The position numbers and the translations under genes are program-made. 34,656 bases of DNA from Spirochaetota bacterium. Its GTDB lineage: Bacteria; Spirochaetota; UBA4802; JAFGJZ01. How positions within the stretch are numbered: the stretch's first letter is position 1; each line of letters begins with the position of its first letter. Below the pieces are notes generated by a model. The model had not been told where the DNA came from. It made no database searches and saw nothing but the letters and a program-made list of their open reading frames with translations. Shown here in pieces: positions 2,886 to 32,710 of this stretch. The DNA lies in NCBI GenBank assembly GCA_027858855.1, contig JAQIBV010000024.1, positions 1 to 34,656 on the forward strand, in the 5' to 3' direction.

Positions 2886-3443
2886 AAGAATACTACAACG
2901 CTCTTCCTTGAGAACTGTTCCAGAAGATGAAATAGAACCCGTTATAGAATAACGCACACGATGTGCGCCCAAGAATTCATAGGCCAAAACTGTCGCACAC
3001 CGTTCAGTGCAACTGACGTTTTTGCGCCCGGCAAAGCCGGTGGCGTGCTTTGTGCAAAAAGCCACCGTAGCACTGAAAGTATTTGTATAAAATTTAAGCC
3101 AAAATTGCAAGAAAAATACTGCACAAAGCATGACAAGCAAAAATGTGCCGTTTATGATTGCTTCATCGCACTTGTCTGGTCGCTCGTTTCACTCGCTGCC
3201 AGCACATGCAGCCTGCCTGTGCTGGCAATCATTCGATGACCTCCTGTCATCTCGACCAAGCACCGCAGACCAGCTTGCTGGTCGAGGAGCACAGCTGTTG
3301 CACTTTGTTGTACGAAGGTTTCGGGCCGAACAGAGAAGATTACCGTTAGCAAATTGACACGGACGTCAATTTGCGCAGAAAAAAACACCTGATTTTTATC
3401 AATTTCTTTTTAAATTTTCAGACAATCAGGGGTTATAATATAT
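2886..3443. repeat. Gene-free, palindrome-rich stretch
   Basis: No convincing gene lies here; the many short frames on both strands are by-products of GC-richer palindromes. A 75-base near-palindrome spans 3003-3077: TTCAGTGC pairs with GCACTGAA, TTTTTGCGC with GTGCAAAAA, and CCGGC with GCCGG around an AAA loop. A perfect 10-bp stem TGCCAGCACA/TGTGCTGGCA is at 3197-3227, and a long hairpin at 3251-3286 pairs CTCGACCA with TGGTCGAG. The GC content and hairpin density differ sharply from the AT-rich flanks. Stacked mobile palindromes or another attC-like site are possible readings. Confidence 0.55.
3177..3200 (-). repeat. Structured palindromic element, degenerate copy
   Basis: Read on the minus strand: GGCA, inner stem GC-GA-GT, loop GAA, AC-GA-GC, then GACCA. 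The inner stem has the same tandem G-A mismatch design as the copies at 4857-4892 and 6194-6228. The 5' internal-loop strand is GGCA rather than GAGCA and no outer stem is evident, so I regard it as a decayed copy. Confidence 0.4.
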
Positions 3444-3677
3444 GTGTATATCTGTGATAAAACAAAAACAAAACCGGCATATAAACCGGGACTTGAACGC
3501 TGGAGCCTGTACAAAGGGTTATGGATCAAGTACTGGAAAGAGTTTCAAAATAGTTACGATGAAACCTTTAAAGAAAAGTATGGAGAATTAACCCAAAGAC
3601 ACAAACTGGAAGTAAGAAAACTTATTTCATGTGGTAAGTTTCAAAACGGATTTAATAGATACTACTGTCAGGGTTGC

Positions 3678-3804
3678 ATGCCCGAGCAAGTGCGAAGCAC
3701 TGACCAGGGAGGATTGCGGGACAATGTTGGTTGTACCATTGGTCGATGCGTGTTTTGACATCCTGTCCGCATCGACTTTGCGGTCTTCCTGACCGCCCTC
3801 CTGT
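3678..3804 (+). repeat. Palindromic element plus further hairpins inside the transposase
   Basis: The core copy is 3681-3709: outer stem CCC/GGG, 5' strand GAGCA, inner stem AGTGC with loop GAA and GCACT, 3' strand GACCA. Downstream in the same insertion are two more perfect hairpins: GTCGATGCG/CGCATCGAC (3742-3750 and 3768-3776) and GCGGTC/GACCGC (3780-3785 and 3791-3796). The whole block separates the two halves of the transposase zinc finger, so it arrived after the IS. It may be several elements nested or joined. Confidence 0.55.
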
Positions 3805-3980
3805 AAATCACGATTATGTTTATCATGTGCCAGAAAAAGGCTCTTTGCCCTTGTAGGTTTTTGTTTCACAAAAATCCTGCGGGTGCTAGCTGGTCTTTGA
3901 ATCTTTCTCACATAATGAACACAGAGCTTGAACATACTCATGTAACCTTCACCATACCCGGAACAATAGCAAAGCTGCTT

Positions 3981-3997: not shown

Positions 3998-4349
3998 TTG
4001 CATCATCGCGATACCGTATAGAAAAATACGTTTTATTTGGAAAAACACATTTTTAAAGCATCTACACAAACAGAACATAATAAATGACGAAGAAAAGGTT
4101 CGCTTTACAGATATTTACAAGAATGGGTTTCACGTATATTTTCAGCCAATAACAGGTGACTGTAACGATAAACTGTATCGAACAGCCGAATATATCGCAA
4201 CTGGTTATTTTCACAACAGCCAGATTCAGGAAATTAATCATGAAAAACGGACAATAACATTCAAATATAAGAAAATGGTAGATCGTGGTAGCAGAAAAAA
4301 GCACTTTTCATATAAGACCATGAGTATTTTTGAGTTTATGGTTGGGTTG

Positions 4350-4389
4350 CATGGGCGAGCAGCAAAATTTATTTTGCGACCAGCCCGTG
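4350..4389 (+). repeat. Structured palindromic element, intact copy
   Basis: Outer stem CATGGGC/GCCCGTG (7 pairs, one G-T), 5' internal-loop strand GAGCA (4357-4361), inner stem GCAAAAT/ATTTTGC with a TT loop, 3' strand GACCA (4378-4382). It breaks the transposase frame between FEFM and YYLPEKH; the frame resumes right after it. Confidence 0.6.
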
Positions 4390-4765: not shown

Positions 4766-4905
4766 AAATTTTAATTAATCACTGTACCACGGGGGATTTC
4801 ACTGGTATATAATCCTCTTTAGTACTGTGTATAAAATGCAGTATGTCTTAGGCCGCATATGCGAGCAGTGAGCTTGCGAACGACCAGCATATTACGGAGG
4901 ATGGA
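4766..4905 (+). promoter_or_regulatory. Leader region 1 with promoter-like boxes and structured element
   Basis: The sequence from AAATTTTAATTAATCAC to the start at 4906 is repeated, with differences, at 6086-6266. TATAAT-like boxes occur near 4807 and 4831, but no clear -35 box pairs with them. Shared blocks include ATCCTCTTTAGTACTGT and AAAATGCAGTATGTCT. The leader ends with the structured element (4857-4892) followed at once by the Shine-Dalgarno sequence ACGGAGG. Conservation in two paralogous leaders suggests that the hairpin influences translation or RNA stability of the exported protein; this is inference. Confidence 0.5.
4857..4892 (+). repeat. Structured palindromic element in leader 1
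   Basis: Outer stem ATATGC/GCATAT, 5' strand GAGCA (4863-4867), inner stem GT-GA-GC with loop TT and GC-GA-AC (tandem G-A mismatches), 3' strand GACCA (4882-4886). The outer stem ends three bases before CGGAGG. The homologous stem in leader 2 is ATGTGC/GCACAT, a compensatory A-T to G-C change. Confidence 0.6.
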
Positions 4906-5972: not shown

Positions 5973-6098
5973 CTAGCCACCCAAACCTCTTTTGGCATAC
6001 TCAGAATTCATACTATCGACTACCTTACTAGCGCGGCCATGTGTAATTTTAGGTGTAAGCTTAATTTCTTCTTTTTTTGAATTAAAAATTTTAATTAA
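5973..6098 (-). pseudogene. C-terminal remnant of an unknown protein
   Basis: On the minus strand a 41-codon open frame reads NSKKEEIKLTPKITHGRASK and continues VVDSMNSEYAKRGLGG to a TAG. Composition resembles a real protein tail more than noise, but there is no start codon, and its upstream end coincides with the border of leader repeat 2. I do not recognise the family. Confidence 0.25.
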
Positions 6099-6266
6099 TC
6101 ACAGTACTACGGGTTTTTTACTGATAAATAATCCTCTTTAGTACTGTATATAAAATGCAGTATGTCTAAGGTCGCATGTGCGAGAAGGACGCATGCACAA
6201 GCAGCGAATGTAGTGAGCGACCAGTGCAGAGAGCTTGCGAACGACCAGCACATTACGGAGGATAGA
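6086..6266 (+). promoter_or_regulatory. Leader region 2, duplicate of leader 1 with nested insertion
   Basis: This repeats 4766-4905: AAATTTTAATTAATCAC, AATCCTCTTTAGTACTGT, AAAATGCAGTATGTCT, the structured element and ACGGAGG are all retained. The element here (6176-6253) is longer because a second copy lies inside its loop. Leader 2 now drives only a 24-codon remnant. Confidence 0.5.
6176..6253 (+). repeat. Structured palindromic element with a second copy nested inside
   Basis: Outer copy: ATGTGC, then GAG, interruption, AGCTTGCGAAC, GACCA (6243-6247), GCACAT. Inner copy (6194-6228): outer stem TGCAC/GTGCA, 5' strand AAGCA (6199-6203), inner stem GC-GA-AT with loop GTA and GT-GA-GC, 3' strand GACCA (6219-6223). 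Comparison with leader 1 places the inserted block between GCGAG and GAGCTTGCGAAC, that is, within the loop side of the older copy. This is direct evidence that the element moves or is copied. Confidence 0.6.
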
Positions 6267-6341
6267 ATGAAATACATGGTCGTACTACTCGCAGTTTTGC
6301 TCTCTACTTATGAGTTTTCAAAATCGTCATTATTTGTCTAG
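6267..6341 (+). pseudogene. Truncated paralogue: signal peptide only
   Basis: The start behind ACGGAGG encodes MKYMVVLLAVLLST, matching the signal peptide of the gene at 4906, but then runs into a 90-base inverted-repeat element and stops after 24 codons. Beyond the element, 6428-6475 again resembles the first copy (CTACATTACTCTTCA, CTAAAAAGATAA), after which similarity ends. Confidence 0.55.
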
Positions 6342-6400
6342 CGACAATTATTAAAATTTAGTCAGTATAGTGAAGATTTAACAATAATTTTGAAAACTCA
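6311..6400. mobile_element. Small inverted-repeat element (MITE-like), 90 bp
   Basis: Perfect 14-bp terminal inverted repeats TGAGTTTTCAAAAT (6311-6324) and ATTTTGAAAACTCA (6387-6400) bound a 62-base AT-rich interior with no coding capacity. Comparison with 4906 onward shows the insertion interrupts the paralogous signal peptide. A TACT on both sides of the larger inserted block (about 6306-6309 and 6425-6428) could be a target duplication. Confidence 0.5.
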
Positions 6401-32356: not shown

Positions 32357-32643
32357 GACATTAATCACTTTATTCATCGTCAATTTAAAAAAAAGAAGCC
32401 TCAAATAATCGCATGAGACATAGTATACATATCGGCAGACTGCTATAAGAGTAAAGACTTTTTTATGCGACATAACGGGATTGATTCTGGAAGCCATATT
32501 GCCTCAAATAAAAAAGTACTCCAAATATCTGCGATCGAATGTAATGAGATCGTCAGAGATAAATGGAAAATGCTTTTTGAATATTTTAGCCTTTTAAAAT
32601 GTTCAAAATAGCTTTCAAAATCCTTAGATTCTTTAAGGGTTAT

Positions 32644-32676
32644 GGCTGGTCACAATCTTTCAGATTGTTGCTCGCC
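32644..32676 (-). repeat. Structured palindromic element within the IS left end
   Basis: Read on the minus strand: outer GGC, 5' strand GAGCA, inner stem ACAATCT with loop GAA and AGATTGT, 3' strand GACCA, outer GCC. It has the same layout as the copies near 4 kb although nearly 30 kb away and with an unrelated inner stem. It lies just before the transposase start. Confidence 0.6.
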
Positions 32677-32710
32677 CAAGCAGCCTGGGAGACAAATTAT
32701 GAGGTTAACC

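Follow-up and report, generated by a model that had tools for sequence, protein, structure and literature searches.

A 42-nt REP-like hairpin element nested in another copy of itself in a Spirochaetota genome

Relation to described palindromic elements

Few mobile DNAs are smaller than REP-like hairpins, whose mode of movement is mostly unproven. The element described here, found in a window of 34,656 nt (the whole stretch of Spirochaetota DNA analysed), was compared with GTAG REPs and their RAYT/TnpA_REP enzymes (PMC3733652, PMC8266576). It resembles GTAG-superfamily REPs in that both are hairpins of 20-45 nt with tens of dispersed copies, an unpaired 5' tag, plausible single-strand recognition and no target duplication. 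However, it has no GTAG next to the hairpin, its fixed motifs lie in a symmetrical 5/5 internal loop, both of its stems are freely variable, it forms head-to-tail arrays without a spacer, and most carriers yielded no Y1 gene. One GTAG-type REP serves the element as an insertion target (see below). CGTC-tagged REPs are likewise small palindromes with no dedicated transposase known and with Spirochaetes among their hosts, but they carry the CGTC tag on a single 8-9 bp stem with a 4-5 nt loop (PMC3733652), whereas the element has no CGTC and combines two stems with an internal loop. It behaves like a REP, yet it bears neither the GTAG nor the CGTC signature and has no associated RAYT in most carriers.

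With IS200/IS605 ends (IS608, ISDra2) the element shares a hairpin with a 5' guide (putative in the element), a target on the left of the insert and the lack of duplication, but it has no transposase gene, and a single hairpin takes the place of their left and right ends. It does not group with the IS91 type, as Y2_Tnp was not detected in 10 of 16 carriers and the loci around the intact Y2 genes found bear no element. The integron attC core boxes RYYYAAC and GTTRRRY are absent from the element consensus. Yeast mitochondrial mobile GC clusters are also mobile hairpins of about 42 nt with no enzyme of their own, with unit merging and with single and tandem forms, although they belong to a eukaryotic organelle, have a putative target duplication and are unrelated in sequence (PMC4478555). 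Insertion sequences are known that target REPs (PMC1525189); in the present case the inserting DNA is a hairpin element too. No Rfam family matched the element at gathering or relaxed thresholds (window copies and six other loci), and a full-text literature search for the element core sequence returned no paper. This tiny mobile hairpin family of spirochaetes, clostridia and Paenibacillus is apparently undescribed. Since several phyla share its covarying architecture and single unit length, and empty and filled sites can be paired exactly, the movement of a 42-nt hairpin becomes directly testable.

The 42-nt insert in leader 2

Leader 1 (4766-4905, plus strand) lies upstream of the gene for a predicted secreted transglutaminase-like protein of 353 aa, and leader 2 (6086-6268, plus strand), the host repeat, reaches the start codon of a truncated signal-peptide ORF. 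The two are paralogous, and further paralogues occur on C1, C21, C38, C43 and C50 of the window's genome, a search of which gave seven usable copies for the leader alignment. Leader 2 differs from leader 1 by one extra block of exactly 42 nt on the plus strand, at 6185-6226 or, owing to a 1-nt ambiguity, 6184-6225; its position was supported by the C43 and C38 copies and by covariance model R1, which places the inner copy at 6186-6228 (E 1.5e-8). The block 6185-6226 reads AAGGACGCATGCACAAGCAGCGAATGTAGTGAGCGACCAGTG and contains AGGACGCA, the arm TGCAC, AAGCA, the hairpin GCGAATGTAGTGAGC, GACCA and the arm GTG(CA). Between leader 1 and C43, the insert is AAGGACGCATGCACGAGCAGCGAATGCAGTGAGCGACCAGTG, lying between GAG and CA with the same ambiguity of 1 nt; the exact ends were computed on the C43 copy, to which the window junctions are identical. 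A slight decay is seen in the window's insert, which has AAGCA where the C43 copy has GAGCA.

The interrupted outer element, delimited by alignment with leader 1, consists of a 5' part (AGGTCGCATGTGCGAG) at 6169..6184 and a 3' part at 6227..6253 (CA, hairpin GAGAGCTTGCGAAC, GACCA and arm GCACAT), both on the plus strand. The uninterrupted element of leader 1 (4850..4891, plus strand; model R1 E 2.2e-9 and alignment) represents the empty site, with its junction between 4865 (..GCGAG) and 4866 (CAGTGAGC..). No target-site duplication was found at the 42-nt insert when leader 1 was aligned with the filled leaders. A 3-nt target duplication had been considered because the left and right triplets are alike (GAG/GTG, AGG/GGG, GCC/GCC); the right triplet covaries with the 5' arm, however, and is thus part of the element. 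The predicted hairpin of leader 1 at the window junction is weak (z 0.26). An earlier note on this DNA, which proposed the alignment of the two leaders, had claimed that one complete element was inserted in another and that the element is mobile, and both claims are borne out by this clean empty/filled pair and by the independent nestings in other genomes described below. Its edges for the inner element, 6194-6228, left out the conserved 5' box. As that note stated, GACCA and the two halves of the outer stem survive in the outer copy, but the GAGCA motif of that copy has been cut by the insert into GAG^CA.

The insert is common to three leaders (leader 2 of the window, C43:3055-3311 and C38:528-770) and absent from four (leader 1, two C1 copies and C50). 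A second hairpin of about 41 nt is missing from both leaders 1 and 2 and present in the other five, indicating that the leader copies are mosaic-recombined, so the leader tree alone is unable to order the events. The direction claimed in the earlier note, insertion rather than deletion, is nevertheless supported, because the insert breaks GAGCA, which is invariant in all 14 and all 24 aligned copies (see below); the leader copies by themselves do not prove that leader 1 was always empty. Insertion into an intact copy thus appears by far the simplest reading. If the longer leader were ancestral, leader 1 would have arisen by an exact deletion of 42 nt, and the shared lack of the second hairpin would allow leader 1 to descend from a filled copy. 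Such a deletion would have had to rebuild the invariant GAGCA exactly from ends that share one nucleotide, four leaders have no insert, and empty forms are in large excess at independent nestings elsewhere, all of which makes this history highly improbable. An unfilled relative of leader 2 was sought, but one congener gave only fragments of 38 nt and 25 nt and two other members of the family gave nothing.

The second hairpin belongs to a GTAG-tagged family, CCCTTGTAGG-(variable inner hairpin)-TCCTGCGGG, which was seen in five leaders (L002, L003, L006, L008 and L009), in the transposase pseudogene of the window (3848-3883) and in larger repeats. Inside the signal-peptide ORF of leader 2, positions 6311-6400 are occupied by an element of 90 bp whose 14-bp inverted ends match perfectly (TGAGTTTTCAAAAT); the ORF reaches a stop soon after it, and the same element stands behind several C1 leaders. 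An IS200-type tnpA gene in a genome of the same genus (G001, L276, about 1640) has been disrupted by sequence from the leader repeat's 5' end (AAATTTTAATTAATCAC..), and the leader repeat itself therefore looks mobile. The nested copy probably has no cellular function and marks activity of the element family.

Architecture, copies and carriers of the element

The element has the order AGG-nn-GCA, outer stem, GAGCA, variable hairpin, GACCA, outer stem. Alignment of 14 copies of the window's genome gave invariant AGG, GCA, CGAGCA and GACCA together with a variable outer stem and inner hairpin, and the motifs GGnnGCA, GAGCA and GACCA were invariant both there and in a second alignment of 24 copies, most of which came from other genomes. 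Both stems covary strongly around these fixed short motifs. In the first set 89% of the cells were paired, with 30 double-changed cells versus 10 in shuffles; the values for the second were 92% and 59 versus 13, and its signal was lost when the partner columns were slid by one. The inner loops favoured C-GNA-G (30 of 52 triloops), a loop type very stable in DNA. Tandem head-to-tail arrays had a period of 42-44 nt, mostly with five nt from GACCA to the next GG, and look like the same insertion event aimed at the element's own end. A single complete copy at Thermoclostridium locus L194 (about 7074, minus strand) is preceded by a head-to-tail series of the element's 5' half (GCCAGGATGCATGGGCGAGCA) with a period of 21 nt.

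The window contains six matches to model R1. Two of those outside the leaders lie on the plus strand in one IS91-type (Y2) transposase pseudogene: the copy at 4344..4387 (E 3.7e-10) falls where the frame of the Y2_Tnp match changes, and the copy at 3671..3711 (E 5.2e-8) interrupts the zinc-binding part. A related transposase copy on C40 (L075) has no element at the position matching 3671..3711. Diverged copies were found on the minus strand at 3171..3214 and 32642..32686 (E 4.9e-5 each). About 70 copies, many in head-to-tail arrays, were counted by the model in the window's genome, and a simple pattern of the element occurred 137 times versus 59 in a reversed control, a recurrence far beyond chance. 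Plasmid searches with leader 1 and with the Y2 fragment gave no matches.

When bacterial genomes were scanned with a degenerate pattern, Spirochaetota, Clostridia, Paenibacillus and Cohnella predominated among the matches listed, and the few in other phyla look like chance. The richest genome had 125 copies and another carrier 48; most sampled genomes of the phylum lacked the element, with eight of 296 positive under strict filters. Ten viral contigs contained one copy each. Many copies ride in larger repeats (a group II intron, a Paenibacillus repeat, the leader and others), and copy number therefore overstates independent transposition. In the complete genome G210 (L222, L228 and L233), at least three and probably twelve near-identical copies lie in the 5' part of a group II intron, the orientation of which flips between the chromosome halves; the strand pattern of that genome was accordingly dropped as evidence for the element, having been traced to the copies carried in the intron. 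Matches to Flavo-1 RNA (RF01705) adjoin element copies in a termite-gut spirochaete (L125 and L107), one of them overlapping the element edge.

The covarying stems, together with the position of some copies in 5' leaders just ahead of the ribosome-binding site (4850-4891 and 6169-6253 in the window), would also be expected of a functional RNA or regulatory structure that was duplicated with its genes, the nesting being incidental. This explanation appears quite unlikely, since copies also occur within transposase genes, an intron and viral contigs, Rfam matched neither the window copies nor the six further loci, and the loops favour DNA-type triloops.

Independent nestings and mode of movement

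Further nestings were found in unrelated hosts. In Paenibacillus cymbidii (L247/L260), a 42-nt unit lies inside the inner hairpin of another copy, and the uninterrupted form is present in the same genome. Two rabbit-gut Clostridia (G309/G310) carry the element at the apex of TGTAGGGGCGTGC-ATT-GCACGCCC, a GTAG-type REP of which these genomes also contain the empty form dozens of times; another element copy occupies the same position of a different REP subtype. In termite-gut Spirochaetales (Gx481) the element lies in the hairpin GGATTTGCC^AATGCAAATCC (split GGATTTGCC^AAT), with empty copies at other loci, and a further termite-gut spirochaete repeat (TTTCCGCT..AT-CCCTT-GCGC) contained the element in 12 of the copies sampled and lacked it in about 39. 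The added length equalled the GG..GACCA core plus five nt in the window, P. cymbidii, the Gx481 hairpin and the repeat filled 12 times, while the insert in the GTAG-type REP was the core plus six nt, that is, one extra nucleotide. The added unit is nearly always the core plus five nt, equal to the tandem period; one unit recurs at unrelated sites, often hairpin apices, and in arrays of the same unit length. An automated empty-site search with strict criteria yielded none among the loci examined, whereas targeted comparisons did give empty/filled pairs. Flanking stems of at least 8 bp were present in five of 108 single copies versus 0.19 expected (permutation test); the five fall into about three host-hairpin families, and a preference for hairpin targets is suggestive. 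In G001 (L081, L083 and L086), a longer unrelated palindrome (CCAGCACCACTTT..AAAGTGGTGCTGG) replaces the inner hairpin, a further type of nesting.

The absence of duplication, the one unit, the hairpin targets and the C-GNA-G loops point to a folded single strand of DNA. We favour, at a probability of about 0.6, a non-coding REP-like mobile DNA hairpin, which would move as a folded single strand, perhaps with the 5' arm as guide. On this reading the mobile unit is NN-GG-NN-GCA-(5' arm)-GAGCA-(inner hairpin)-GACCA-NNN, equal to the core plus five nt, and in the common ancestor of leader 2 and its sister leaders one such unit entered an older copy, separating GAG from CA. A trans-acting enzyme would cut and join the strand, with the fixed motifs as probable recognition sites, by a logic like that of REP and IS200/IS605 elements, though the evidence so far speaks against their Y1 enzyme.

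The main rival is repair-based capture, in which no dedicated transposition takes place: hairpins would break or stall replication, repair would capture short single-stranded pieces of hairpin at other hairpins, for example after SbcCD-type opening 5' of the loop, and larger carriers with gene conversion would do most of the spreading. Cleavage of hairpins on the 5' side of the loop has been reported for SbcCD (PMC6265447), and hairpin apices are where the insertions cluster, several of them at the 5' loop edge. The riding of copies in introns, IS91 pseudogenes and larger repeats and the failure to find a Y1 enzyme in the richest carriers also agree with it. However, random capture should leave variable ends, whereas the ends of the captured piece are nearly always identical (core plus five nt) in unrelated hosts and in tandem arrays, and the fixed GGnnGCA, GAGCA and GACCA across phyla imply sequence recognition. 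Repair capture is consequently regarded as rather improbable.

A Y1 transposase (TnpA_REP/RAYT-like) moving the element as a new kind of REP would fit the 5' box before the hairpin, the single-strand-friendly loops, the lack of target duplication and the possible guide pairing, which match IS200/IS605 and REP biology (PMC8266576), and Y1 genes were present in five of 14 carriers and in the window's genome. The enzyme would have to have disappeared, escaped notice in incomplete genomes or diverged beyond the reach of Pfam, as Pfam Y1_Tnp was not detected in the other nine carriers, among them the 125-copy and 48-copy genomes and a complete one. Moreover, the element has no GTAG tag, and where flanks were read, those of the two Y1 genes of the window's genome, the element was not found, so a Y1 mobiliser is considered unlikely. 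These two genes (L046 and L047) have palindromic repeats of their own nearby (GGGACGGTGG and GTAGGGAACGGTTTCAAACCGTTCCCTAC). Y1 and Y2 were both rejected as resident mobilisers, having gone undetected in most carriers searched. No mobilising enzyme was identified, and the evidence points to one not yet named.

For the REP-like hairpin moved in trans, the 5' arm of the outer stem may act as a guide by pairing with the last three bases of the element and with a comparable triplet immediately to the left of the target. Such a role, proposed from few empty/filled pairs, would explain both the pairing of the arm with the element's last bases and the CC left of GGC-arm copies. More speculatively, and doubtful as a whole, hairpins of about 42 nt may have been spread across phyla by a non-Y1 single-strand recombinase, with the outer-stem arm as a rewritable guide that chooses the target, so that hairpins nest preferentially in hairpins. 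Of the 103 copies with a GGC arm, 82 had CC on their left, versus five of the 22 with other arms, lineage being confounded with arm type.
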